From Streptomonospora nanhaiensis (GTDB lineage Bacteria > Actinomycetota > Actinomycetes > Streptosporangiales > Streptosporangiaceae), in NCBI RefSeq assembly GCF_013410565.1, contig NZ_JACCFO010000001.1, forward strand, positions 372,001 through 436,000: a stretch of DNA of 64,000 bases, read 5' to 3'. Position numbers and translations under genes: made by a program. How positions within the stretch are numbered: position 1 is the stretch's first letter; every line of letters begins with the position of its first letter. Shown one piece after another: positions 26,016 to 43,850 of the stretch. A model generated the notes under the pieces. That model had not been told where the DNA came from and searched no databases. It saw only the letters and a program-made list of their open reading frames with translations.

Positions 26016-28295
26016 ATGGTGGACCAGCCGACCGGTCCCGCCGCGAACCCCCCTTCGCCCGCACCCTCACCCTCGGGCCGCTTCGACCTGCGCGGCGGCA
26101 TCGCCGCGCTGGGCCGCCGCACCCGGTCGGGTGCCGCCGGCCTGACCATCGTCGTACTGGCCGCCGCGCTCATCAGCACCGCGTTCGGTCTGGGCGCCAT
26201 GGGCCGCGCCGACGAGATGTCCGACGGCGCCGCGTGGCTGTGGAACAGCCCGGCCGGCGAACTCGCGCGCGTCAACGGCAACAACGCCGAGGTCGACCTG
26301 GTGACCTCCCTGCCCGACTCCAAGGGCGGCGCGGTCGAGGTCTCCCAGAACGACGAGTACCTGCTGCTGCACGACCCCTCCACCGGCAAGGTCACCTCGG
26401 TGGACCTGCGCGAGATGGGCTTCTCCGGCGTCCTCGACCTCGGCCGCAGCGGCGACTTCGGCGTGGTCCTGGGCAAGGAGTCCGCCGTGGTGATCGACCG
26501 GCTGGGCGGCGAGATCAAGGCCGTCGACCCCGCCACCCTCCAGCCCACCGGCGCCTCCCTGGAGATCCCCGCGCCCCTGGTCGGCGGCGCGTTCGACGAC
26601 TCCGACACCCTGTGGCTGGGCGTGCCCACCCAGGGCACCGCCGTCGGCGTGCGCGTGGAGGGCAAGGACGCCGCCATCGCCGAGACGGTCTCGGTGGCCG
26701 ACCCCGGCGCCGACCTGGCGCTGACCGTGCTCGACGAGGGCGCGCTGGCGGTGGACCGCGGCGGCGACCGCATCGTGCCCGTCAACGGCGAGGGCGAGGC
26801 CCGGGTGCTGGACGCGCCCGTCAAGCTCAAGGACGCCGAGGTCCCGCCGCGCACCCGCGGCGACCTCGCCGCCATCACCGTCCCCGGCAAGGGCCGCGTG
26901 GTCACCGTCTCCGACGCCGCCGGCGCCGCCGAGGTCGCCTCCTTCGCGACCGGCGGCGAGGGCGCCGGCGCGGCCGTCGCCTACGAGGGCCGTGTCTACG
27001 TCCCCTTCGCCGCCGACGGCAGGGTGCGCGTCTTCCAGCCCGACGGCACCGAACTGAACCCCATCAGCCTCCCCGGCGCCAAGGGCCCGATCGAGCTGGA
27101 GGCCCGCGAGGGGCACCTGTTCATCAACTCGCCCGACACCGGCGTGGCCGCGGTGGTCGATCCCTCCGGCCAGGCCAACCTGGTCGACAAGACCGACCCC
27201 CCGCCCGGCGACGGCGAGGGCCCCGGCGCCGGAGCGCCCGCCAGCGGCACCCCCGAGCCCAGCGCACCGCCGCAGACCCAGCCTCCGGGCGGGGCGCCCA
27301 GCACCCAGGCGCCGCCCGCGCCGGGCACCGGCGAGAGCCAGACGCCGCGGCCCGGTCCGCAGGACGAGGAGCCGCAGGAGCCCTCCAACCCGCCGCCCGC
27401 CGACAACGACGGTGACGGCGAGGGCGGCGGCGGTGAGGGCGACGGCGAGACCGAGGAGCCCGAGAGCACCGACGCCCCCGGCGCGCCCACCCCGGTCTCG
27501 GCCACCGCCGGCGACGGCAGCGTGACCCTGTCCTGGCCTGCGGCGTACTCCCCGGACGCACCCGTGGAGACCTACGAGATCACCTGGGAGGGCGGCAGCC
27601 GCACGGTCGACGGCTCGGAGCTGAGCGCCGAGATCACCGACCTCCGGAACGGCACCGCCTACCGGTTCCGGGTGCGCGCGGCCAACCGGTACGGCACCGG
27701 CCCGGCCGCCCAGACCCAGGAGGTCACCCCCGGCCCCGAGGCGCCGGGCGCCCCGGCCAACGTCACGGCCGAGGCCACCGGCGGCGACACCGCAACCGTG
27801 TCGTGGGACGCGGTCGAGGGGGCCGTGGACTACCAGGTGACGGCCTCGTCGTCGTCGGGGTCGGCGGTGCCCGCGCCGCGCACCACCGGCAGCGCGTCCG
27901 CCGAGATCACCGGACTGGAGCCCGGCGGCTCCTACACCTTCACGGTCGTGGCGCGCGGCGAGGGCGGGGTCAGCGGTGAGCCCTCCTCCAGCCAGGAGAT
28001 CACCATGCCCGAGGAGGAGTTGGGCGCGCCCGCGAGCGTCACCTGGCAGGCGTCGGGCGACACGGTCACCGTGTCGTGGGACGCGGTGGAGGGCGCGGCG
28101 GAGTACCGCGTCACCCCCGGCGGCGACGGTGCGGCGGCGCTGCAGGAGGCCACCGCGACGGGCACCTCCCACACCTACCAGCCGCGGGGGGCCGGGCGCT
28201 GCTACTCGTTCACGGTGACGGCGCTGGGCGCCGACGGCACCGCGGCCGAGAGCGGCACCACCAGCCAGGCCAGCTGCGTACGCGAGTTCAACTGA
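26016..28295 (+). CDS. Membrane-anchored extracellular protein with three FN3 domains
   Basis: The 759-aa protein has a disordered cytoplasmic N-terminus, one transmembrane helix at about 43-65 (LTIVVLAAALISTAFGLGAMG), a repetitive beta-rich region at about 70-390 that looks like a propeller (repeated blocks such as YLLLHDPSTGKVTSVDLRE), and a Pro/Gly/Glu-rich linker (about 390-485). Three fibronectin III domains then start near 487, 575 and 668, each with the SVTLSW or TVSWDAVEG strand. The C-terminus contains two cysteines. It is probably a surface receptor or adhesion-like scaffold. The FN3 pseudokinase 6.5 kb downstream has a similar extracellular tail, suggesting a shared context. Confidence 0.8.
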   Translation: MVDQPTGPAANPPSPAPSPSGRFDLRGGIAALGRRTRSGAAGLTIVVLAAALISTAFGLGAMGRADEMSDGAAWLWNSPAGELARVNGNNAEVDLVTSLPDSKGGAVEVSQNDEYLLLHDPSTGKVTSVDLREMGFSGVLDLGRSGDFGVVLGKESAVVIDRLGGEIKAVDPATLQPTGASLEIPAPLVGGAFDDSDTLWLGVPTQGTAVGVRVEGKDAAIAETVSVADPGADLALTVLDEGALAVDRGGDRIVPVNGEGEARVLDAPVKLKDAEVPPRTRGDLAAITVPGKGRVVTVSDAAGAAEVASFATGGEGAGAAVAYEGRVYVPFAADGRVRVFQPDGTELNPISLPGAKGPIELEAREGHLFINSPDTGVAAVVDPSGQANLVDKTDPPPGDGEGPGAGAPASGTPEPSAPPQTQPPGGAPSTQAPPAPGTGESQTPRPGPQDEEPQEPSNPPPADNDGDGEGGGGEGDGETEEPESTDAPGAPTPVSATAGDGSVTLSWPAAYSPDAPVETYEITWEGGSRTVDGSELSAEITDLRNGTAYRFRVRAANRYGTGPAAQTQEVTPGPEAPGAPANVTAEATGGDTATVSWDAVEGAVDYQVTASSSSGSAVPAPRTTGSASAEITGLEPGGSYTFTVVARGEGGVSGEPSSSQEITMPEEELGAPASVTWQASGDTVTVSWDAVEGAAEYRVTPGGDGAAALQEATATGTSHTYQPRGAGRCYSFTVTALGADGTAAESGTTSQASCVREFN

Positions 28296-28352: not shown

Positions 28353-28802
28353 GTGTCGCCCAGGAAGCACCGCACCAGGACCTGGATCACGGCGGCGGGC
28401 GCCGTGGCGGCCATCACCGCCTCGCTGTTCATGACGTCGGCGACGGCGGCTCAGGGCGCCGACCCCGCCCAGGTGTGCCGCAGCGGCGGAGGAGCCGACG
28501 GCAGCGCCTACACCCAGCCGGTCAACCAGGTGGCGGTGCCCGGCGGCAAGGGCACCGTGTACCTCTACTACGACTCCGCCACCGGTATCAACTGCGCCGT
28601 CACGATGGGATCCGTCTCGGGGGCCACCTACATGGACGTCGGGCTGCGCCGCACCCAGGAGGGCGCGGGCGAGTGGGACTCGGGCACCTTCTCCTCCTAC
28701 GCCGGGCCGGTCTACGTATCGGCCAAGGGCATCTGCGTCGACTTCACCGGCGCCGTCGGCGACCGCTCGGTCACCGTGATCGGCAAGAACTGCGGCGCCT
28801 GA
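28353..28802 (+). CDS. Secreted SapA-like (spore-associated protein A) protein
   Basis: The 149-aa product has an N-terminal signal peptide (basic start, hydrophobic core, probable cleavage after TSATAAQGA near residue 36). The mature part has four cysteines and the motifs GTVYLYYDSATGINCAV and SYAGPVYVSAKGICVDF. These match the pattern I know from spore-associated protein A of streptomycetes, a small exported protein found with spores and in culture fluid. The start is GTG with AAGGGAG upstream. The molecular role is not known. Confidence 0.75.
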   Translation: MSPRKHRTRTWITAAGAVAAITASLFMTSATAAQGADPAQVCRSGGGADGSAYTQPVNQVAVPGGKGTVYLYYDSATGINCAVTMGSVSGATYMDVGLRRTQEGAGEWDSGTFSSYAGPVYVSAKGICVDFTGAVGDRSVTVIGKNCGA

Positions 28803-28943
28803 GCCGCCCGGCCCGCGCCGCGCGCGTGCTGCGCGGCGGGTCCCGGGCACCGGTATAGGGTGCCGTGCGTGGCGGCCCGCCCGCGCCGCGTGGGGGCGGC
28901 GGCGCCGCGGCAGTCCCGCAGCCAGCACAGGGGGAGACCGCAG

Positions 28944-29405
28944 ATGAGTCCGTCCATCGCAACCACCACCAGGGTGTCGCGCGAGGAGCTGCTGGAGTTC
29001 GTCCGGCCGCGCCACCGCGCCGTCCTCCTCACCCGGCGCGCCGGCGGTGAACCGCAGATGTCGCCCGTGACCTGCGGGGTGGACGACTCGGGCCGGATCG
29101 TGGTCTCGACCTACCCCGAGCGCGCCAAGGCCCGCAACGCCGCCCGCGACCCCCGCGTGAGCGCGGTCGTGCTCTCCGACGAGTGGAACGGGCCCTGGGT
29201 GCAGGTGGACGGCACCGCCGAGGTGATCGAGGGCGAGGACGCCGTCGAGCCGCTGGTGGAGTACTTCCGCAACATCTCCGGTGAGCACCCCGACTGGGAG
29301 GAGTACCGCGCCGCCATGCGCCGCCAGGGCAAGGCCCTGCTGCGCCTCACGCCGGAGCGCTGGGGGCCGGTCGCCACCGGCGGGTTCCCCGCCCGGCTGG
29401 CCTGA
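28944..29405 (+). CDS. PPOX-class F420-dependent oxidoreductase
   Basis: The 153-aa protein is a split-barrel flavin/F420 fold: FVRPRHRAVLLTRRAGGEPQMSPVTCGVDD at the N-terminus, RAKARNAARDPRVSAVVLSDEW for cofactor phosphate binding, and VQVDGTAEVIEGEDAVEPL. Family members reduce small substrates with F420H2 or bind other cofactors; the natural substrate cannot be told from sequence. The ATG at 28944 has GGGGGAG upstream. It is monocistronic, between the SapA-like gene and the MoxR operon. Confidence 0.88.
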   Translation: MSPSIATTTRVSREELLEFVRPRHRAVLLTRRAGGEPQMSPVTCGVDDSGRIVVSTYPERAKARNAARDPRVSAVVLSDEWNGPWVQVDGTAEVIEGEDAVEPLVEYFRNISGEHPDWEEYRAAMRRQGKALLRLTPERWGPVATGGFPARLA

Positions 29406-29899: not shown

Positions 29900-30934
29900 G
29901 TGAGCACCCATGTACCTCCCCATCCGTCCGGCGCACCCCACGGCGCCGCCGGAGCGGTGACAGCGGACGAGGCGGCACTTTTCGCGGACGAGTTCGACGG
30001 GATCGCCGCCTCCGTCGAATCGGCCCTCTTCGGCAAGACCGAGGTCGTGCGCCTGGCCCTGGTCGCGATGCTGGCCCGCGGCCACATCCTGCTGGAGGAC
30101 GTCCCCGGGACCGGCAAGACCACCCTGGCCCGCGCCATCGCCGCCTGCGTCAACGGGCACTGGCGCCGCGTGCAGTTCACGCCCGACCTGCTGCCCTCCG
30201 ACGTCACCGGGGTCACGGTGTTCAACCAGGGCACCCGGGAGTTCGAGTTCCACCCCGGACCCGTCTTCGCCAACGTCGTCGTCGCCGACGAGATCAACCG
30301 CGCCTCGCCCAAGACCCAGTCGGCCCTGCTGGAGGTCATGGAGGAGGGCATGGTCACCGTCGACGGCTCCCGCTACATGGTGCCCTCGCCGTTCCTGGTG
30401 GTGGCCACGCAGAACCCCGTCGAGATGGACGGCACCTACCGGCTCCCCGAGGCCCAGCTCGACCGGTTCCTCGTCCGGCTGTCCCTGGGCTACGCCGACC
30501 ACGCCGCCGAACTCGCCATCATCCGCGGCGACCGCCTCACCTCGCCCGAGGACCTCACCCCGCGCACCGGGGCCGAGCAGATGGACCGCATGGCCGAGGC
30601 CGCGCGGCGCGTCCACGTCCACGACTCCGTCTACGAGTACGTGCTGCGGATCGCCCACGCCACCCGCAACCACCCCGCGCTCAGCGTGGGCCTGTCCACC
30701 CGCTCCACGGTGGCCATGGCGCACGTGATGCGGATGCTCGCCCTCACCTCGGGGCGGCCCTTCGTCAGCCCCGAGGACGTCAAGCGGCTGGCGCCGCCGG
30801 TGTGGGCGCACCGCCTGGTGCTCTCGCCCGAGGCGGCGGTGGGCGGGCGCAGCGGCGCGGCCGTGCTGGAGGAGATCCTGGAGCAGGTCCCGGCACCCCA
30901 GCCGGGGTACACGGGGGCGGCGGCGGGCCGCTGA
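29900..30934 (+). CDS. MoxR-family AAA+ ATPase
   Basis: The 344-aa protein is a canonical MoxR ATPase: Walker A EDVPGTGKTT (66-75), Walker B VVVADEINRASPKTQSALL, sensor 1 VVATQNPVEMDGTYRLPEAQLDRF with arginine finger, and an AAA lid domain. It begins the operon MoxR-DUF58-(small ORF)-transglutaminase-like-pseudokinase; in other bacteria such operons are proposed to mature or assemble membrane or secreted complexes. The GTG at 29900 is followed by STHVPPHPSGA, and GGAAAG lies upstream. The stop overlaps the DUF58 start (TGATG). It is distinct in sequence from the YehL-like ATPase at 7.3-8.4 kb. Confidence 0.93.
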   Translation: MSTHVPPHPSGAPHGAAGAVTADEAALFADEFDGIAASVESALFGKTEVVRLALVAMLARGHILLEDVPGTGKTTLARAIAACVNGHWRRVQFTPDLLPSDVTGVTVFNQGTREFEFHPGPVFANVVVADEINRASPKTQSALLEVMEEGMVTVDGSRYMVPSPFLVVATQNPVEMDGTYRLPEAQLDRFLVRLSLGYADHAAELAIIRGDRLTSPEDLTPRTGAEQMDRMAEAARRVHVHDSVYEYVLRIAHATRNHPALSVGLSTRSTVAMAHVMRMLALTSGRPFVSPEDVKRLAPPVWAHRLVLSPEAAVGGRSGAAVLEEILEQVPAPQPGYTGAAAGR

Positions 30935-32061
30935 TGCCGACGACACGGGGATGGCTGGTCGCCGCCGCCGGCGCGCTGCTGCTCACTGCGGGGGTGGTGT
31001 CGCAGTACAAGGAGGTGGCGGTGCTGGGCGCCGTCGCGCTGCTGGCGGTCGCCGCCGCCGTCGCCGTGGTGGGCCGCCCCGCCGAGGTGGTCGCCGAACG
31101 CGCCATCCCGGCCGTCCGCACCACGCCGGGCTCCACCGTGCGGGTGCGCATCCGCGCGCGCAACACCGGACGGCGCGCCCTCCAGGTCAGCGAGCGCGTG
31201 GCCGGTGCCGACGGCGAGCGCCACGTGCCGCTGCCGCCGCTGGCCGCCCGCGCCACCGGGGAGTCCGGCTACCGGGTCGCGGCCGCGCGCCGCGGGGTGA
31301 TCGAGCTGGGTCCGCTGCGGGCGGGCCGCTCGGACCCCCTGGGCCTGGCCGAACTGCGGCGGGGCTACGGGCCGGCCGACCGCATCTGGGTGCACCCCCG
31401 CTGGGAGCACCTGCGCGCCATCCCCGTGGGCCGGGTGGCCGACCCCGACGGGGTCGTCGACAACGCCCGCGCCGGCACCCTCACCTTCCACACGCTGCGC
31501 GACTACGTGCCCGGCGACGACCTGCGGCACGTGCACTGGCGCAGCTCGGCGCGGCTGGACAAGCTCGTGGTGCGCGAGTACATCGACACCTCCCAGACGC
31601 GGGTGTGCGTGCTGCTGGACGACCGGCCCACGCCCGGCGGCGACACCCGGCTGGACGAGGCCGCCGGCGCCGCCGCCTCCATCCTGGCCACCGGCGTGCG
31701 GTCCTCGCTGCACTGCGAGCTGCGGCTGGTCAGCGGCCGGGGCCGGGAGAGCACGGCCGGACTCCCCACGCTGCTGGACCTGCTGGCCGAGGCGCGGCCC
31801 ACGCCCGAGGCCGACCTGCCCGCCGCGCTGCGCATGGCGCGCGCCCGGCCCGCCGGCGACACCGCCGTGCTGGTCAGCGGCGCGCTCACCGACGCCGACC
31901 TGCGGCTGTTCGCCCAGTTGCGCGACCGCTACGCGGGCCTGCTGGCGGTCCTGGTCGGCGCCGAGGAGCGCCCGGCCGCGCCCGCCGGGGTCACCCTGCT
32001 CGCCGCCGGCGACGCCGCTGGCTTCGCCGACCGCTGGAACGAGGCACCATGGTCGCGGTGA
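30934..32061 (+). CDS. DUF58-domain membrane protein
   Basis: The 375-aa protein has two N-terminal membrane helices (about 5-22 and 28-46), a beta-rich segment, and the DUF58 signature at about residues 189-207 (RDYVPGDDLRHVHWRSSAR). The C-terminal region resembles a VWA-like fold (CVLLDDRP, TAVLVSGALTD). DUF58 proteins are constant partners of MoxR ATPases and probable substrates or effectors. The ATG overlaps the MoxR stop by one base, giving tight coupling. Confidence 0.92.
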   Translation: MPTTRGWLVAAAGALLLTAGVVSQYKEVAVLGAVALLAVAAAVAVVGRPAEVVAERAIPAVRTTPGSTVRVRIRARNTGRRALQVSERVAGADGERHVPLPPLAARATGESGYRVAAARRGVIELGPLRAGRSDPLGLAELRRGYGPADRIWVHPRWEHLRAIPVGRVADPDGVVDNARAGTLTFHTLRDYVPGDDLRHVHWRSSARLDKLVVREYIDTSQTRVCVLLDDRPTPGGDTRLDEAAGAAASILATGVRSSLHCELRLVSGRGRESTAGLPTLLDLLAEARPTPEADLPAALRMARARPAGDTAVLVSGALTDADLRLFAQLRDRYAGLLAVLVGAEERPAAPAGVTLLAAGDAAGFADRWNEAPWSR

Positions 32062-32471
32062 CACCGCCGCCCCTTCCGCCTGCCGCCGACTCCGCCCCGC
32101 CCCGGGCGCGCCGTGCCCCGAAGCACCGCTCGGCGGGCGGGGACGCGTCCGCCGCCGGTGCGACCGCCTGTTCGCCCAACGCGGGCCGAGGAACCGCCGA
32201 CGGCCCCCAGAGCGCGGGCGGCGGGGCCGCGACCGGTCGGCTGGCCGATTCCGGCATTTCTTCGGCGGGAACCGGGCCGCGCGCGGGGGCCGTCGTAGGG
32301 GGTACTCCACCGGGCGGCCCGCCGCTGGGGCCGCCCCGCCCGGCAGCCGCCGCGCCGACCTCCGCCTCGACGAGGGGCGATCCGCCCGGCCGGCGGAGCC
32401 GCCGCGCCGGTGCCCGCACGACCACCACGACCGGAGCCGACCGCAGGAAGGAGGCGGCATGGCCGCGATGA
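32049..32471 (+). CDS. Doubtful low-complexity ORF between the DUF58 and transglutaminase-like genes
   Basis: This 140-aa frame, starting MVAVTPPPLPPAADSAPP, overlaps the end of the DUF58 gene by 13 bp and the start of the next gene by 13 bp, which is the spacing expected of a coupled operon member. The protein is almost entirely Pro, Ala, Gly, Arg and Thr, with no domain or membrane segment. It could be a real disordered linker protein or simply fill the 400-bp gap by chance. I find no second line of evidence. Confidence 0.25.
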   Translation: MVAVTPPPLPPAADSAPPRARRAPKHRSAGGDASAAGATACSPNAGRGTADGPQSAGGGAATGRLADSGISSAGTGPRAGAVVGGTPPGGPPLGPPRPAAAAPTSASTRGDPPGRRSRRAGARTTTTTGADRRKEAAWPR

Positions 32472-34744
32472 CCGCCCCCGCCGGGCCGGGCTCCGCCGCG
32501 CCCGAGCCGCCCGGCCGGCCCCCGGCGCCCCCGCGCCGCCCCGGCCCCCGGCCGCGCGCACTGGTGGCCGCCGCCGGACTCGTCCTGGCCGCCGCCGCGG
32601 GCGGCGTGGCGCTGGCGCCCGGCTACGCCCGGCCCGGAGTCCTCTACACGCTCCTGCCCGCCTGCGCCGTGGCCGCCGTGGCGGCCACCCTGCTGCTGCG
32701 GCGGCGCACCACCGCGTTCCGCACCGTCCTGGCCGGCCTGCCCGTGCCCCTGGCCGCCGTGGTGGCGGTGGCGGCGTGGCTGCCCGGCGAGGGTTCCGGA
32801 GTTCTCGGCGGCGCCGGCGAGGCGCTGCTGCACTCGGGCGCGCGCATCCTCACCAGCACCGCGCCCACGCCGCTGAGCGTCGACACCCTCACCCTCCCGC
32901 TGCTGGCCACCTGGCTCACCGGCACCGCCTCGGCGCTGGCCTGGCGCGCGCGCCGCGCCTCGCTGGCGCTGCTGCCGGGCCTGCTGCTGCTCGTCGGCGC
33001 GGTGGTGCTCAACGGGCCCGCGGCGCCGCCCGGGTTCGGGGCCATCGGCATGCTCGCCGTGGCCGCGGCGGCCCTGATGGCCGTGCCCCAGCCCGCCCCC
33101 GGCCCCGGCGGCGCCGACGGGCCCGCGCTGACCGTCGAGGTGGAGGCCGCCGACGCCCGCACCCGCGCCTCCGGCCTGCGGCGCGCGGTCACCACGGCGG
33201 TGATCACCGTCGTCGTCGCCGCGCTCACCGTCTTCGGCGGCCCCGCGCTGCTCGCGGGCTGGGACGCCACGCCCGGCGACCCGCGCACCGCCGTCACCCC
33301 GCCCATGGCGCCGCAGGCCGCGCTCAACCCGCTCAGCTACCTGTCCGGGTGGGCCGCCGACCCCGACGAACCGCTGCTGACGGTGACCGCCGAGCGGCCC
33401 GTGGACCTGCGCTGGGTCGTGCTCGCCGAGTTCACCGGCACCACCTGGCTGCCCGAGGGCGGCTACCGCGCCGCCGGGCAGACGCTGCCCGCGCCGGTGC
33501 CGCCCCCGCCGCACCCCACCGAGACCACCGCCCGCATCGCCGTCGGCGACGACCTGCCCGGCAACTGGGCGCCCGTGGTCGGCGCGCCCCAGCGGGTGGA
33601 GCTGTCCGACCTGGGCTACGACCCGGTGACCGGCACGGTGGTGCGGCGCGAGGGCGGCCTCGCGGGCAGCGAGTACAGCGTGACCGGCCAGGTGCCCGAC
33701 TGGCGGGCCGAGGAGCTGGCCGGGGCGAGCACCCCCGCCGAGGAGGTGTTCGACCGCTACCGCGAGCTGCCCGAGGGCGCGCCGCCCGTCCTCAACCAGA
33801 TCGTGGCCGCGGTCGCCGCCGAAGGGGCGCCCTACCAGCGGGCCGCGGCCATCGCCGAGTATCTGCGCGACTCCCACTCTTTCGACCCCGAGACCCCCGG
33901 CGGCCACGGCTACGCCAACGTCGCCGCGATCCTCGCCCCGCCCGGGGAGGAGGGCGGCGGCGGCACATCCGAGCAGTTCGCCAGCGCGTTCGCCATGCTG
34001 GCGCGCGCGGCGGGGCTGCCCAGCCGGGTCGCCGTCGGGTTCGGCCCCGGCACCGACGAAGGCGAGGGCCGCTTCTCCGTCCAGACCGGCGACGCCGTGG
34101 CCTGGGGAGAGGTCTACTTCGAGGGCGTCGGGTGGGTGCCGTTCTCGGTCACGCCCGGCGGCGAGGACGGCGACGACGCGGGCAGCGCCCCGCAGAGCGC
34201 CCCCGAACCCGAGGACGCCGAGCAGAACCAGGACGAGGACCCCGACTCCGACGCCCACGACGTGTCGGCGCCCCCGCGCGAGCGCGGCGGCGGCGGAGCC
34301 TGGGCGGCGCTGCTGTGGAGCGGCGGCGGCCTGCTCGCGCTGCTGCTCGCCGTCCCGGCGGCGCGCCTGGCCCGCGGCGCCCGGCGGCTGCGCGCGGGCA
34401 CCCCCGAGCGCCGGGTGCTGGGCGCCTGGCGGGAGCTGCGCGACGGCCTGCGGCAGAGCGGCGCGGACCTGCCGCCCGGCAGCACGGTCGGCGACACCCT
34501 CGCCGCCGCACGCGACCTGCTGCCCGAGGGCGCCCGCGCGGGAGCCCAGGCCGACCTGGACCGGCTGGGCCACGCCGTCAACAGCGTCGGGTTCGCCTCG
34601 GGGCCCGACGTCGACGCGGCCGCGGCGGCGCGCGTGGCCGACGGCGTCCGCCGCACCCTGCGGCTGCTGCGCGCCGGCCGGGACCGCCGCAAGCGGCTCA
34701 CCTGGTGGTTCGACCCCCGACCCCTGTTCTGGCGGACGCCGTGA
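32459..34744 (+). CDS. TgpA-type transglutaminase-like membrane protein without catalytic triad
   Basis: The 761-aa protein has five or six N-terminal membrane helices (about 30-235), an extracellular transglutaminase-core domain (about 430-570), another membrane helix near 618-636 and a cytoplasmic tail. In the core the usual catalytic Cys is Ser504 (GGTSEQFASAF), the usual His is Val547 (GDAVAWGEVYF) and the usual Asp is Ser563 (VPFSVTP). All three catalytic positions are changed while the surrounding fold motifs are kept, so it is probably a binding or structural domain. The ATG at 32459 has GGAGGC upstream. Confidence 0.88.
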   Translation: MAAMTAPAGPGSAAPEPPGRPPAPPRRPGPRPRALVAAAGLVLAAAAGGVALAPGYARPGVLYTLLPACAVAAVAATLLLRRRTTAFRTVLAGLPVPLAAVVAVAAWLPGEGSGVLGGAGEALLHSGARILTSTAPTPLSVDTLTLPLLATWLTGTASALAWRARRASLALLPGLLLLVGAVVLNGPAAPPGFGAIGMLAVAAAALMAVPQPAPGPGGADGPALTVEVEAADARTRASGLRRAVTTAVITVVVAALTVFGGPALLAGWDATPGDPRTAVTPPMAPQAALNPLSYLSGWAADPDEPLLTVTAERPVDLRWVVLAEFTGTTWLPEGGYRAAGQTLPAPVPPPPHPTETTARIAVGDDLPGNWAPVVGAPQRVELSDLGYDPVTGTVVRREGGLAGSEYSVTGQVPDWRAEELAGASTPAEEVFDRYRELPEGAPPVLNQIVAAVAAEGAPYQRAAAIAEYLRDSHSFDPETPGGHGYANVAAILAPPGEEGGGGTSEQFASAFAMLARAAGLPSRVAVGFGPGTDEGEGRFSVQTGDAVAWGEVYFEGVGWVPFSVTPGGEDGDDAGSAPQSAPEPEDAEQNQDEDPDSDAHDVSAPPRERGGGGAWAALLWSGGGLLALLLAVPAARLARGARRLRAGTPERRVLGAWRELRDGLRQSGADLPPGSTVGDTLAAARDLLPEGARAGAQADLDRLGHAVNSVGFASGPDVDAAAAARVADGVRRTLRLLRAGRDRRKRLTWWFDPRPLFWRTP

Positions 34745-34793: not shown

Positions 34794-37700
34794 ATGAGCG
34801 GCGCGGAGCACGAAAGCAGACTGGCCCCCGGGTTCCACTCCCTGGAGGTGCTGCATCGCGGCGCGGCCTCGACCCTGTACCGCGCGCTGCGCGACGGCAC
34901 CCGCGAGCCGGCCGCGCTGAAGGTGATGCGCGACGAGTCCGGCGCCGCCGAGATCGAGCGGCTGCGCGAACTGGCCCGCCTGCCCGGTGTGGTGCGGGTG
35001 CTGGGGCGGGGCCGCACCTTCTCGGGCCGCATCTTCGTGGCCATGGAGTACTGCACGGACGGCGACTACGCCATCAACCTGCGCCGGCGCCACCCGCTGC
35101 CGGTGGAGGAGGTGGTGCGCGTGGGCAGCGCCGTGGCCGCCGCGCTGGAGGCCGTGCACGCCAAAGGGCTGCTCTACCACGGCATCGAGCCGTCCAACAT
35201 GCTGAAGTTCGGCGACGCCGCCGTGCTGACCGACGCGGGCGACGTGCTGCCGATGGACACGGCGCCGCCGGTGCCCGAGCCCGACCCCGACGCGATCGTG
35301 CACGCGCCGCCGGAGGTGCTGCGCGGGGAGGGGGTGGGGCCGGCCTCCGACCTCTACCGGCTGGCCTCGTGCCTGTGGACGCTGCTGGCGGAGTACCCGC
35401 CGTTCGCCGACGGCGCGCACGCGCCCATCGACCCGTTCGCCTACCGCGACCGCGCGCTGGTCGATCCGCCGCCGGAGCCGCCGCGCGCCGACGTGCCCCG
35501 GGCGCTGTGGCCGGTGTTCGAGCGGGCGCTGGCCAAGGACCCGGCGGACCGGTTCGCCTCGGCGGCCGAGTTCCGCGCCGCGCTGCGCCTGGAGATCCGC
35601 GTGACCGCGCCGGCGCCGGTGCGCCGGCGGCCGGAGGAGCGGGCCGAGGACCCCGGCGCGGCGGTGGCGGCGGGAGCGGCCGCCGCTCCCGAGGCTGCCG
35701 CACCGGCGGGGCAGGAAACCGCGCCGACGGCGCCGGAGGCGCCCGCGCCCGCCGCGCCGGATGCCCCGGTAACCGCCGCGGTTCCCGAGGGCCAGGGCCC
35801 TGATGAGGCGGCCTACGGCCCGGTCCCCCAGGCGCCGGACGCGCACGGCGGCGCGGCGGGGGTGGGCGCGGACGTGGCCGCCACCGGCGGCCACGTGACC
35901 CGCGTCGACCCGGCCCCGCAGGAGAGCGCGGGCGGGGCGCCGACCGATCCGGGGCCGCACGCGCGGGCGGCGGACGCGGCCGAGGCGGAGCCCGAGCCGG
36001 CCGCCGCCTTTGACGGCGGCCCCCGGCCCGCCGAGGGGCCCGGCGCGGCCGGCCGGCCGCAGGAGGCGTACCAGACGCACGGGGCGCCGGCGCAGGAGGC
36101 CGACAGCGCGTCCGCGGGAGCGGCGGCCGTGGGGGAGTGGCCGCTTGCGACCGGGGACGGCGTCCCGCCGATCGGCGAGGTGCTGCCGGGGGACGACCTG
36201 GTGGCGGAGGCGACGTCGTGGCAGTCGGCGTGGGCGGTGCAGGAGGCCGAGGCGGCCGAGCCGGAGACCGCGGTGGAGGCCGCCTGGGCGGCCCCTGACG
36301 AGGGCGCGGACACGGCGCTCGGGAACGGCGTTTACGGCTCAGGCGCCGCGCCGGTGGCAGGGGACGGGCCCGCAGTCGCCGAGGACCCGCCGACCGGGGA
36401 GGGCGCGTCCGCGGTCGGCGCTTTCCCGGACAGCGAGGACGCCGGTCAGGCGGCCGGCACCGCTGAGGGTTTCGGGCAGGCGGACCAACCCGCCTCGGCG
36501 ACGGCTGAGGACCGGGAGCCGCCGGTCGGCGGCGCTCCGCCGGGCGAGGGGGCTCCCGGCGCCGGGGTGGAGGAGACGTGGGCGGATCCCCCGGGGGATT
36601 ACGCCTGGCCCGCGGGTGAGGGCGTCGCCCCGGACGGCGAGCCCGGCGGGCAGTCGGCGTCCGGGGGGTACGACACCCCGCCCGGGCAAGGCCGCGCCGT
36701 TTCGCCCGCCGCCGGCGCCGAGGACGACGAGCCCGTGCGGACGGCGGCGACCGGCGAGTACGCCGCGCCCGTGGGTGAGCCCGCCCCGGCTCGTGGTTCG
36801 GAGGTGGGGGACGACCGGAACCCGGCCGCCGAGACCGAAACCGATCCCGCCGACGCCTCCGGCCAGGAGGCGCCCGGCACTGGCGTGGAGGAGACCTGGG
36901 CGGATCCCTCGGCCGGCTACACCTCGCCCGCGAGTGAGCACAGCGCCGCGGACGACGAACCCGCGTGGCAGTCGGTGTCGGGGGAGTATGGCGCTCAGGC
37001 CGACGCGGAGCCGCCGGGTCCGGTCGCCGGTGGTGTCGAGGGCGAGGGCGCCTGGGCGGCCGCGTCCGAGTACGCCGCCCCCGTGCCCGATCCCGACCCG
37101 GGGGTTGGGGTGGAGCCGGAGGTGGACGCGGACCGGGACCCGGCCGCCGCGTCCGAAACCGGTTACGCCGACTCCACCGTCGAGCAGACCGCGATGTGGC
37201 CCGCCGAGGGCGCCGACGACGGCGCACACGTCGGTCGCGAGGCGGATTACGGCGCGGCCGAGGAGACCTCGGCCGCTGCCTCCGGTGGCTACGTGCTGCC
37301 CGCCGAGCCTCCCCGGCCCGGCGCGGACGGTGCTGACGCGCCGGTGGAGGGCCCCGGAGCCGTCCACGGCGCCGAGGAGGCGGCCGCGTGGGCCGCCGCC
37401 TCCGGCGGGCACGCCGTCGCCGCCGCCGCGCCGCCCGCCCCGCGTCTCGGGGAGACCCCCGCCGCGCCCGCGCCCACCGACCCCGCCGCGCCCGTCGGCG
37501 GCACCGGTCCGCAGTGGCCGATGGGGGAGCAGCACTCTGAAGGCGCCTGGACCGGTCCGCAGCGCCCCGGCGCCGCCGGCACGGGGCCGTACGCCGCCGG
37601 CGCGGCCGCCTCGGCGGCCGGCGGCGGCAGCGGCCCCTACCCGTCCTCGGGCGCCGGGACGCCGGGCCGGAACGCCGACCCCTACGCGCCGCCGCTCCCG

Positions 37701-38180
37701 CCCCTCCCGCCGCCCCCCTCGAAGCGGTCGGGGTCCTCGCGCGGCCCGCTCTACATCGCCGTGGGCGCGGCGGCCGTCACGGTCGTCGCCGTCGCGGTCG
37801 GCGCGGTCGCCGTGGTGGGGGCCGGAGGCGACGACGAGGCCGGGCAGTCCCCTCCGGCCGGCGGCGAGAGCGGTCCGCCCCCCTCGGCGGCCGACGTCGA
37901 GGAGTTGGCGCCCACCGACGTCACCATGGACGACAGCGGTACCACGGTCGTCCTGGAATGGACCGACAACACCGGCGGAACCGCCTCCCACCACGTGGTC
38001 GGCGGTCCCATCGGCACCACGCCGGTCAACCTCGCCGACGTCGAACCCGGCGAGACGACGGCCACCGTCAACGGGCTCAACGCCGGCCAGGAGTACTGCT
38101 TCGTGGTCTTGGCCGTCCTCAGCGTGGAGGAGATCGGCCGCTCCGAGGAGACCTGCACCCAGCGGGCGGAGGAGGGCTAG
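34794..38180 (+). CDS. Membrane pseudokinase with long acidic linker and extracellular FN3 domain
   Basis: The 1128-aa protein has a Ser/Thr kinase-like domain at 15-270: Lys43 of the VAIK motif is present (AALKVM), but the HRD motif reads HGI (129-131) with KPSN changed to EPSN, and DFG reads DAG (147-149), so the catalytic Asp is lost. Residues about 270-980 form an acidic Ala/Pro/Gly/Glu-rich linker with a tandem repeat of 106 residues. A transmembrane helix (about 985-1010) and one FN3 domain (about 1040-1125, with EYCFVVLAV) follow. It is the last gene of the MoxR-DUF58 operon, 49 bp after its neighbour. Confidence 0.88.
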   Translation: MSGAEHESRLAPGFHSLEVLHRGAASTLYRALRDGTREPAALKVMRDESGAAEIERLRELARLPGVVRVLGRGRTFSGRIFVAMEYCTDGDYAINLRRRHPLPVEEVVRVGSAVAAALEAVHAKGLLYHGIEPSNMLKFGDAAVLTDAGDVLPMDTAPPVPEPDPDAIVHAPPEVLRGEGVGPASDLYRLASCLWTLLAEYPPFADGAHAPIDPFAYRDRALVDPPPEPPRADVPRALWPVFERALAKDPADRFASAAEFRAALRLEIRVTAPAPVRRRPEERAEDPGAAVAAGAAAAPEAAAPAGQETAPTAPEAPAPAAPDAPVTAAVPEGQGPDEAAYGPVPQAPDAHGGAAGVGADVAATGGHVTRVDPAPQESAGGAPTDPGPHARAADAAEAEPEPAAAFDGGPRPAEGPGAAGRPQEAYQTHGAPAQEADSASAGAAAVGEWPLATGDGVPPIGEVLPGDDLVAEATSWQSAWAVQEAEAAEPETAVEAAWAAPDEGADTALGNGVYGSGAAPVAGDGPAVAEDPPTGEGASAVGAFPDSEDAGQAAGTAEGFGQADQPASATAEDREPPVGGAPPGEGAPGAGVEETWADPPGDYAWPAGEGVAPDGEPGGQSASGGYDTPPGQGRAVSPAAGAEDDEPVRTAATGEYAAPVGEPAPARGSEVGDDRNPAAETETDPADASGQEAPGTGVEETWADPSAGYTSPASEHSAADDEPAWQSVSGEYGAQADAEPPGPVAGGVEGEGAWAAASEYAAPVPDPDPGVGVEPEVDADRDPAAASETGYADSTVEQTAMWPAEGADDGAHVGREADYGAAEETSAAASGGYVLPAEPPRPGADGADAPVEGPGAVHGAEEAAAWAAASGGHAVAAAAPPAPRLGETPAAPAPTDPAAPVGGTGPQWPMGEQHSEGAWTGPQRPGAAGTGPYAAGAAASAAGGGSGPYPSSGAGTPGRNADPYAPPLPPLPPPPSKRSGSSRGPLYIAVGAAAVTVVAVAVGAVAVVGAGGDDEAGQSPPAGGESGPPPSAADVEELAPTDVTMDDSGTTVVLEWTDNTGGTASHHVVGGPIGTTPVNLADVEPGETTATVNGLNAGQEYCFVVLAVLSVEEIGRSEETCTQRAEEG
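36549..37184 (+). repeat. Two tandem 318-bp (106-residue) coding repeats
   Basis: Units 36549-36866 and 36867-37184 both begin with APG(A/T)GVEETWADP and share the block EYAAPV followed by a (D)D/R-N-PAA motif at the same offset. They are imperfect at DNA and protein level. They lie in the cytoplasmic linker of the pseudokinase. Confidence 0.65.
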
Positions 38181-42752: not shown

Positions 42753-43745
42753 CTAGCTGTACTGACCCGAGAGGTTGGGTACGCGGGTGGCGGGTGGGCC
42801 GCCGATCGCGGTGTGGAACCGGTGGTGATTGTAGTGGTGGAGCCAGCCCGGGAACGCTTCTCTGCGTTCGGCCTCTGAACGGTAGGGGCGGGCATAGGCC
42901 CATTCCTCGGCCAGGGTGCGGTGGAACCGCTCGACCTTGCCGTTGGTCTGGGGCCGGTAGGGCCGGGTGCGCTTGTGCGTGATCTGGGCCCGGGCCAGGG
43001 CTTCCCGCCACATCCGGGACTTGTAGCAGGACCCGTTGTCGGTCAGCACCCGCTCCACCGCGATGCCCACCGAGGCGAAGTAGGCGCCCGCCCGCGCCCA
43101 GAACGCGGTGGCGGTCTCCTTCTTCTCGTCGGTGAGGATCTCGGTGTAGGCCAGGCGGGTCCGGTCGTCGATGGCGGTGTGCAGGTAGCCGTGGCCGATC
43201 ACCGGTGAGCCGTGCTTGCGGGCGGCGGTCGTGGCCTGCTTGTTGCGCACTCCGGCGTAGCGGCCCACCGCGCGGTGGCCGCCGCCGTCGGGGATGTTGC
43301 CGAGCTTCTTGACGTCGACGTGGACGAGTTCGCCGGGGCGGGCGCGTTCGTAGCGGCGCACGGCAAGGCCGGTGGCGCGGTCGGTGCAGGACAGGCGGGG
43401 CATGCGGTAGCGGGTCAGGATGCGGTGGACGGTGGAGGCCTCCATGTGCAGGTGTCCGGCGATGCGGGCGGGCCCCCAGCGCTTGATGAGGCGGAGTTTG
43501 ACGACGCGGCGCTCGCGGCGGGCGGGGGTGCGCCGGGGCGAGCGGTGGGGGCGGCTGGAGCGGTCGCCCATGGCGGCCGCGCCGTGGGTGCGGTAGCGGC
43601 TCGCCCAGCGCTGGGCGGTGGCCACGCTGGTCTGGAAGCGTTCGGCGGCCCGGCGCAGCGGCCAGCCGTCCTCGACGACGCAGCGGGCCAGGGCCAGACG
43701 CCCGGCGGGGGTCAGGCGGGCGTTGGCGTGGGTAGTGTGGGGCAT
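42753..43745 (-). CDS. IS481-family DDE transposase
   Basis: The 330-aa protein has an N-terminal helix-turn-helix region (GWPLRRAAERFQTSVATAQRWASRYR), a second HTH-like part (WGPARIAGHLHMEASTVHRILTRY) and an rve integrase core with D in HVDVKKLG, D in VLTDNGSCYK and E in NGKVERFHRTLAEEW. It is full length. The TAG stop falls on the flanking CTAG target. The ATG at 43745 (MPHTTHANARL) is preferred; an upstream GTG at 43784 adds 13 residues. Confidence 0.93.
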   Translation of the reverse strand: MPHTTHANARLTPAGRLALARCVVEDGWPLRRAAERFQTSVATAQRWASRYRTHGAAAMGDRSSRPHRSPRRTPARRERRVVKLRLIKRWGPARIAGHLHMEASTVHRILTRYRMPRLSCTDRATGLAVRRYERARPGELVHVDVKKLGNIPDGGGHRAVGRYAGVRNKQATTAARKHGSPVIGHGYLHTAIDDRTRLAYTEILTDEKKETATAFWARAGAYFASVGIAVERVLTDNGSCYKSRMWREALARAQITHKRTRPYRPQTNGKVERFHRTLAEEWAYARPYRSEAERREAFPGWLHHYNHHRFHTAIGGPPATRVPNLSGQYS

Positions 43746-43850
43746 CGAGGGCCTTCCGGGCGGTGGGACGTCAGACATCCACACCGATACCGGAGGCCCT
43801 CTTCGTTGTTTTTGCCGGGGCCGGTGTTACCAACCTCCGTGGTCAGTACA
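42758..43850 (-). mobile_element. IS481-family insertion sequence, complete
   Basis: The element is 1093 bp and begins and ends with TGTACTGACC; the inverted repeats continue imperfectly for about 25 bp through GAGGTTGG. A 6-bp duplication flanks it and it encodes one intact transposase, so insertion is probably recent. It landed between the lut regulator and a small gene at 43909, in what looks like that gene's 5' region. Confidence 0.9.

Follow-up and report, generated by a model that had tools for sequence, protein, structure and literature searches.

A 64,000-nucleotide stretch of the 6.28 Mb genome of the soil actinobacterium Streptomonospora nanhaiensis (assembly GCF_013410565.1, contig NZ_JACCFO010000001.1, positions 372,001 to 436,000; hereafter the window) encodes a membrane protein whose N-terminal domain has the fold of a Ser/Thr kinase and a degenerate catalytic loop. 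The loss of kinase motifs is a family trait rather than the peculiarity of one odd gene. The gene is the last of a set coding for a MoxR-family ATPase, a DUF58 protein and a transglutaminase-like protein, a set that in Bifidobacterium already goes by the name of PFNA operon. What is new is the combination of three features: a PFNA-type kinase turned pseudokinase; the absence of PP2C and FHA genes from its available flanks; and the location of 35 of the 54 members of the family near genes of type VII secretion systems. Below we present the evidence for this family, and for the view, which we somewhat favor, that the protein acts by binding rather than by catalysis.

Architecture and catalytic motifs of the window protein

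The gene and the protein that it encodes can be divided as follows (all on the plus strand):

34794..38180, +, pseudokinase gene, whole frame (a single open reading frame (ORF) of 1128 amino acids)
34794..35603, +, pseudokinase domain, residues 1-270 (Pfam Pkinase, structural model, Foldseek, profile search)
34920..34922, +, kept beta-3 Lys43 (alignments)
34950..34952, +, kept alpha-C Glu53 (alignments)
35175..35198, +, catalytic loop, degenerate, with Y128-H-G-I-E-P-S-N135 where active kinases have HRDxKPxN
35232..35240, +, D147-A-G replacing DFG (alignments)
35604..37745, +, acidic Ala/Gly/Pro-rich linker, residues 271-984 (composition, comparison with S. mangrovi)
37746..37826, +, hydrophobic segment, likely a single membrane helix, about residues 985-1011 (read by eye)
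37884..38177, +, C-terminal FN3 domain, residues 1031-1128 (model, Foldseek, invariant Cys)

Pfam Pkinase matches residues 15-254 with 53.9 bits (cut-off 31.7; E 2e-14), and the model of the domain, predicted from 30 aligned sequences with a mean local confidence (pLDDT) of 90.7 and a predicted template-modeling score (pTM) of 0.89, has a complete bilobal kinase fold that is corroborated by fold and profile matches: PknB of Mycobacterium tuberculosis is both the top Foldseek match of the model (E 2e-18) and the first match of the profile search. Two other kinase-like families were considered and rejected, as their NCBIfam scores lie far below the respective cut-offs, namely the antiphage kinase MAD6 (61.4 bits vs 460) and PglW of BREX (33.2 bits vs 990).

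We anchored the register of the catalytic loop on the xPxN of HRDxKPxN. The alignment then places Gly130 at the position of the catalytic Asp and Glu132 at that of the loop Lys, while Asn135 and the metal-binding Asp147 of the DFG motif are retained and its Phe is replaced by Ala; the glycine loop is degenerate too. An original prediction, made from the sequence alone, had equated HRD with HGI: it was right about the loss of the Asp, but its register has to be rejected, since the PxN anchor yields Y128-H129-G130, one register earlier. Its readings of EPSN for KPSN (E132-P-S-N135), of DAG for DFG (with the metal-binding Asp in place) and of a retained ATP-binding Lys43 all agree with the alignment. 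Judging by these motifs, the window protein has presumably lost phosphotransfer.

The remainder of the protein is likewise close to what had been predicted. The foreseen acidic linker of about 700 residues measures 714, with a net charge of -93; it is weakly conserved in comparison to Streptomonospora mangrovi (626 codons align, at 56% identity, and 299 columns are gapped) and variable in length among relatives. The single membrane helix corresponds to the one hydrophobic segment and remains putative. The predicted FN3 domain gives a weak Pfam fn3 match at residues 1039-1111 (22.7 bits, below the cut-off of 25), but the model of residues 1031-1128 (pLDDT 92.1) matches solved FN3 domains (best Foldseek E 4.6e-6). 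Since Cys1102 and Cys1121 are invariant in all 26 aligned sequences, we suggest that this domain carries an extracytoplasmic disulfide. The nearest named relative of the protein is that of S. mangrovi, with a kinase domain 90% identical.

A family of kinases that lost the catalytic-loop lysine

To place the domain we gathered 81 kinase rows, from 60 named loci and further loci; as the named loci were retrieved with two pseudokinase peptide patterns, the sample is biased towards the pseudokinase family and is no census. Eleven rows were dropped from the tree as identical (L039, L042, L043, L044, L045) or as partial or outlying (L055, L081, L099, L115, L116, L118), and further kinase matches in L071, L079, L092 and L106 were left out. 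In the resulting midpoint-rooted tree of 70 domains, a branch with support 100/98 splits 54 pseudokinase rows from 16 others. The catalytic-loop (KPxN) Lys is lost in 54/54 rows of the clade and kept in 16/16 outside it; its column, invariant in the 16, falls to conservation rank 238 of 256 in the 54. All the catalytic residues considered here are intact in each of the 16, and no member of the clade carries the full set of catalytic motifs.

Within the clade the two catalytic Asp residues show alternative patterns of loss. The HRD Asp is kept in 27/54 and the DFG Asp in 25/54, with 22 rows having the former only, 20 the latter only, seven neither and five both. Other residues are better retained: Lys43 is kept in 50/54, Glu53 in 49/54 and Asn135 in 49/54; Glu53 and Lys43 stand at conservation ranks 20 and 26; and the APE Glu174, alpha-F Asp186 and Arg253 are invariant. 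Seven of the eight members of the clade that includes the window protein retain Lys43, Glu53, Asn135 and Asp147 together. The simplest history, going by these alignments, would be a single loss of the loop Lys followed by differing Asp losses among the branches.

The original prediction looked to orthologues for conservation of the degenerate motif. The closest, that of S. mangrovi, has YHG, EPSN and DAG, whereas that of a Micromonospora sp. (L076; 47% identity) has a literally whole HRD and DFG, with only the loop Lys gone. Both Asp residues are also kept in Dactylosporangium roseum (L101; HRD and DFD) and in three Nocardiopsis (L095, L096, L103; HND and DFG). Several deep branches emerge without resolved order, one of them uniting L076 and L101, and two Micromonosporaceae metagenome-assembled genomes that fall outside the clade (L088, L110) have intact kinases. 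A side observation concerns L107, recorded as Glycomyces fuscus TRM 49117, whose kinase is nested inside Nocardiopsis on a very short branch; the label is doubtful, and a mislabeled or contaminated record or a recent transfer is likely.

Selection on the kinase domain

The ratio of nonsynonymous to synonymous substitution rates (dN/dS) of the kinase domain is 0.17-0.47 in ten pseudokinase pairs (one sequence being used twice), with all upper bootstrap limits below 1; the values for three intact-kinase pairs were 0.10, 0.21 and 0.32. C-terminal ratios for L096-L103, L067-L083, L110-L088 and L111-L113 (20-36% identity) were excluded, their frames being cut by contig ends or mismatched at the ends. 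As purifying selection is seen in all ten pairs, we reject the decay of a pseudogene as an explanation for the family; the kinase domain is maintained in most sampled lineages, though not in all.

The operon and its Cys-less transglutaminase

The neighboring genes of the window that belong with the pseudokinase gene are these:

26016..28295, +, FN3-repeat protein, corresponding to the FN3 component of such operons (Pfam fn3, 102.1 bits over two stretches)
28353..28802, +, small protein of 149 amino acids (recurs near the cassette in some relatives)
29900..30934, +, MoxR-family AAA ATPase (Pfam AAA_3 208.7 bits)
30934..32061, +, DUF58 protein, with ATG at 30934 (Pfam DUF58 35.2 bits)
32459..34744, +, TgpA-like membrane protein with a Cys-less transglutaminase core, SVS (Pfam Transglut_core 66.2 bits, TgpA_N 62.5 bits)

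By Pfam matches and synteny, the PFNA-type set is complete in the window: membrane kinase, FN3 protein, MoxR, DUF58 and transglutaminase. The FN3 gene, syntenic in relatives, is separated from the MoxR gene by two other genes; the N-terminal part of its product is a possible beta-propeller (SGL 15.3 bits, below cut-off). The kinase was predicted to share an operon with the transglutaminase, MoxR and DUF58 genes. This is supported by the overlap of the MoxR and DUF58 genes by one base and by the gap of only 49 nt between the transglutaminase and kinase genes, but less so by the 397 nt between DUF58 and transglutaminase, which hold one weak terminator-like stem at 32240 (two such sites in the 11 kb scanned, vs 0.8 expected). 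A single transcript for the four genes is likely on this arrangement. A second MoxR-DUF58-transglutaminase-pseudokinase operon is present in the same genome (L047, G000:C1:3225095-3225916), its kinase reading HHA and EPAN with an intact DFG; S. mangrovi carries both operon copies as well.

The prediction of a dead transglutaminase holds, as its triad reads Ser/Val/Ser instead of Cys/His/Asp, and the juxtaposition of two inactive enzyme folds with MoxR and DUF58 is thereby supported at the level of sequence. We counted 59 transglutaminase rows after dropping the repeats L039, L044 and L045, and took a copy as linked if a kinase, PP2C, FHA, EccC or WXG100 match lay in the same stretch. The Cys is absent from all 44 linked copies; among the 15 without such a neighbor it is present in seven and absent in eight. 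As Cys-less transglutaminases also stand beside intact kinases (e.g., L048, L054, L110, L158), their loss of the Cys is probably older than that of the kinase motifs, and the idea that both enzymes were dying together is rejected (L048, L054, L110). A separate Cys-bearing TgpA-like copy (GYCEQF) was found in 6/6 genomes of the genus that were searched, at G000:C1:1282670 in the window genome and with a stop codon inside the frame in G005; the operon-type copies read GTSEQF or GTSGQF. We also noted two tandem MoxR-DUF58-transglutaminase sets near intact kinases (HRDVKPEN) in L177 (G140), whose transglutaminases read GYAEQH and GYSEQH.

As for the other genes, the 149-residue protein has tblastn matches in L059 (identical to L039), L077, L104 and L106, and no family match in Pfam or NCBIfam. 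An F420-dependent PPOX-class oxidoreductase (28935-29405, +; TIGR03618, 135.8 bits) lies between the FN3 protein and MoxR, and is present in S. mangrovi too. About 4.6 kb past the end of the kinase gene, a frame at 42753-43784 on the minus strand encodes a putative IS481-type transposase.

Gene neighborhoods and type VII secretion

The flanks were scanned with hidden Markov models built from fetched loci, several of them with short contigs or flanks, and a WXG100 protein, the 116-residue protein adjoining it, EccC or EccD counted as a type VII secretion marker. At least one marker was found in the flanks of 35/54 clade members and the MoxR, DUF58 and transglutaminase set in those of 20/54; the two occur together in six (L060-L064 and L104), and five have neither. 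These are not 54 independent observations, because the loss of the loop Lys is one event. In the available flanks PP2C and FHA were found in 0/54 and 0/54, as against 4/16 and 6/16 for the intact kinases.

The window protein's own clade of eight rows includes five Nocardiopsis (L060-L064: N. listeri, terrae, ganjiahuensis, metallicus and prasina) in loci with EccD and WXG100-like genes. On one strand these show the order EccD, a small ORF, a WXG100-like ORF, the 116-residue protein, MoxR, DUF58, transglutaminase and pseudokinase; in L060, opposite-strand ORFs intervene between EccD and the small ORFs, and EccC is visible only in L063 and L064, whose stretches extend to it. Among the 30 rows of the sister clade (joint support 96/88), 29 have a marker nearby, 27 have WXG100, and 22 have EccC or EccD. 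For L040, Pfam supports EccC, EccD and one of the two small proteins (WXG100). In Actinomadura physcomitrii (L104) a WXG100 protein (28.7 bits, above cut-off), an FN3 protein, a small protein, MoxR, DUF58, transglutaminase and kinase stand together. Hence, by gene position, the secretion link is well supported in the sister branch and in five members of the window's own.

Outside the clade, PFNA-like sets with intact kinases were observed beside EccC/FtsK-type ATPases in L054, L158, L171, L115 and L117. The FHA domain on the ATPase of L054, the only one checked, is supported by Pfam; WXG100 proteins score above the cut-off in L171 and L115, and also in L162, where no kinase was matched.

Relationship to known systems

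The original prediction knew of no description of its combination of genes; this does not stand, as kinase, FN3, MoxR, DUF58 and transglutaminase make up the PFNA operon of Bifidobacterium (pkb2, fn3, aaa-atp, duf58 and tgm, in some cases with prpC and fha), whose Pkb2 is reported to be active and to phosphorylate MoxR (PMC8430577). The described gene content puts the same five kinds of protein in one cluster in both, with a membrane kinase bearing a C-terminal extracytoplasmic region and a membrane transglutaminase-like protein. They differ in that the kinase gene is last in the window set and first in PFNA, that the window kinase has YHG and EPSN in place of the catalytic loop of an active Pkb2, and that its flanks are devoid of the PP2C and FHA genes seen in some PFNA operons. 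We found no publication in the open-license literature on a pseudokinase version of this gene set, nor one in that literature linking it to type VII secretion; the one paper to emerge there for DUF58 together with MoxR and WXG100 concerns Mycobacterium chelonae prophages.

A likely functional parallel is EssB/YukC, the pseudokinase of type VIIb secretion (PMC9600267, PMC3694306, PMC12599244), which works without catalysis. By its probable topology the window protein has, as EssB/YukC does, a cytoplasmic pseudokinase domain, one transmembrane segment and an extracytoplasmic domain, with secretion genes nearby in relatives of the window protein. They do not belong to one family: at E 0.1 only Pkinase and fn3 were matched in Pfam, and the nearest solved sequences of the window kinase are PknB-type, unlike the EssB/YukC family; further, it has an FN3 instead of a helical domain outside and keeps Lys43. 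TsdD and TscD of the T7SSd and T7SSc subtypes are membrane kinases that, like some relatives of the window protein, are encoded with WXG100 and FtsK-type ATPases in Gram-positives, but their C-terminal regions are helical rather than FN3; TscD is said to have a conserved active site, and TsdD is referred to as a predicted kinase (PMC11217815). For several subtypes the same survey of type VII variants describes PPM phosphatases as well as membrane kinases, and its text has no occurrence of MoxR, DUF58 or transglutaminase (PMC11217815).

Among pseudokinases derived from Ser/Thr kinases in actinobacteria, the families ActPs1, ActPs2 and ActPs3 (MviN) have been described, the latter two often with a C-terminal transmembrane segment (PMC12599244). 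ActPs2 has Arg for the beta-3 Lys, Asn for the HRD Asp, a deletion of DFG and a long activation-loop insertion (PMC12599244), in contrast to Lys43, Gly130, Asp147 and no long insertion in the window protein. In ActPs3 all catalytic motifs are degraded and the activation loop has a deletion (PMC12599244); going by this description, the window protein is set apart by its Lys43, Asn135 and Asp147. Finally, TgpA-type transglutaminases share TgpA_N and the transglutaminase core with the window's transglutaminase-like protein, in which the Cys is missing.

Proposed function and alternatives

An adaptor with docking partners both in the cytoplasm and outside would account for a protein that keeps its kinase fold, its N-lobe pair and its outer domain while the catalytic loop drifts. 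On balance we lean towards the window protein being a membrane adaptor that only binds, within an envelope module linked to secretion, and that acts like EssB/YukC. As close relatives lie inside protein-secretion clusters, it is probably a docking platform rather than an enzyme, and the proposal of the original prediction that the kinase domain works by binding gains support from the kept fold-locking residues, the drift of the catalytic loop and the purifying selection. Briefly, the mechanism might be as follows. The N-terminal domain would descend from an active membrane Ser/Thr kinase of a PFNA-type operon, having retained its fold and the N-lobe Lys-Glu pair and lost its catalytic loop. 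The long acidic linker and one helix would lead on to the FN3 domain, which is probably extracytoplasmic and held by a disulfide, such that the pseudokinase likely forms a bridge from a cytoplasmic partner (a secretion ATPase, the MoxR ring or the DUF58 protein) to the Cys-less transglutaminase fold facing the envelope; this fold, too, might bind rather than cross-link. MoxR would supply an ATP-driven assembly step. In Nocardiopsis, where the module lies in WXG100/EccC/EccD loci, it most likely aids the assembly or gating of a type VII-like secretion or envelope complex. The comparisons above establish the fold (as a model), the states of the residues, their loss in a single clade, the selection and the gene neighborhoods; from these we infer the loss of phosphotransfer, what the protein binds (nucleotide included), how it lies in the membrane, its role in secretion and all that concerns its function in the window's strain.

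Several observations weigh against this proposal. The stretches read around both operon copies of the window genome have no secretion genes, and because none adjoins the operon there, we can only infer a secretion role in this strain. Two full-length EccC-like genes (matches of 43% and 40%) are encoded elsewhere in that genome, at C1:3500585 and C1:5461277, with a partial match at C1:2024104. The gene at C1:5461277 adjoins EccD and small ORFs that, read by eye, are putatively WXG100-like; at C1:3422638, next to other small ORFs, there is a distant match to the 116-residue protein. A Nocardiopsis-type WXG100 query had no match in the genome, which, as the search had no positive control, shows little. 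Even the WXG100-like protein of L060, at 24.8 bits, falls short of the 27.3-bit cut-off, and Pfam finds nothing in the first small ORF there. The absence of PP2C and FHA reflects one lineage, and was seen in flanks of which some are short, with models seeded from one locus. Within the genus the operon is accessory, as its type of transglutaminase occurs in just 4/6 genomes. Lastly, the five members of the clade with both catalytic Asp, one of them with whole HRD and DFG, may for that reason still be active.

These points leave room for other explanations. We think it unlikely, though deserving of attention, that the kinase domain is a decaying passenger of a membrane-anchored FN3 domain that forms the conserved working part. 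In L058, L105 and L109 the N-lobe has gaps of 21-26 positions and Arg replaces Lys43, which would fit a dispensable domain, and the FN3 identity to the window protein (55, 46 and 47%) exceeds that of the kinase domain (33, 40 and 35%); L058, from the same genus (G004), is thus an orthologue with a large N-lobe deletion and a well-kept FN3 domain. The kinase domain of the window and S. mangrovi pair is the least constrained, with dN/dS 0.47 [0.25-0.81] vs 0.15 [0.03-0.38] for FN3, and in 6 of 16 other relatives compared the FN3 identity is higher by 1-6 points. Yet the kinase identity is equal or higher in the remaining 10 of the 16, the fold-locking residues are invariant in the 54, and purifying selection acts on the domain in 10/10 pairs. 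Of similarly low probability in our estimate is a PFNA-type envelope sensor that signals by conformation and is unconnected to secretion, the secretion linkage being a matter of other branches. The PFNA operon has indeed been discussed in terms of signal recognition (PMC8430577), the flanks of the window and S. mangrovi genes have no secretion genes, and 14/54 members have the cassette and no secretion marker; but the five Nocardiopsis of the window's clade of eight, the 29 marker-bearing rows of the sister clade, and the intact-kinase operons beside EccC/FtsK-type ATPases, with WXG100 genes in L171 and L115, speak against it.

SelO is an AMPylase, and by an unusual mechanism the window protein, too, might still transfer phosphate or another group such as AMP via Lys43, Asn135 and Asp147. 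That seems very improbable to us: 7/8 of its clade keep these residues and Glu53, 5/54 members keep both Asp, and a published listing gives SelO an Hgv at the HRD position (PMC12599244), but no catalytic set is conserved across the clade, in which most rows have one Asp or the other and some neither, and the glycine loop is degenerate as well.

Implications

Beyond the adaptor proposal, we tentatively raise a bolder possibility, of which we are rather doubtful: that this is an actinobacterial EssB-like secretion pseudokinase, in which a PFNA/PknB-type kinase lost the loop Lys once, shed PP2C and FHA, and joined an ESX-type machine together with MoxR, DUF58 and the Cys-less transglutaminase. 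PFNA itself may be a type VII secretion module, going by the neighborhoods of the PFNA-like sets with intact kinases. If the EssB-like scenario were true, the PFNA operon would be a type VII secretion module at its root, although discussion of it to date has been about the sensing of host signals; secretion machines would have gained a cytoplasmic pseudokinase on at least two occasions, once in Bacillota and once in Actinomycetota, and from different kinases; and this would suggest that the fold of a dead kinase lends itself to docking in WXG100 export. On these grounds PFNA operons merit tests for a role in secretion. The family, moreover, forms a series from the intact kinase through the loss of the loop Lys to alternative losses of the Asp residues, and hence offers a natural test of what a pseudokinase requires.

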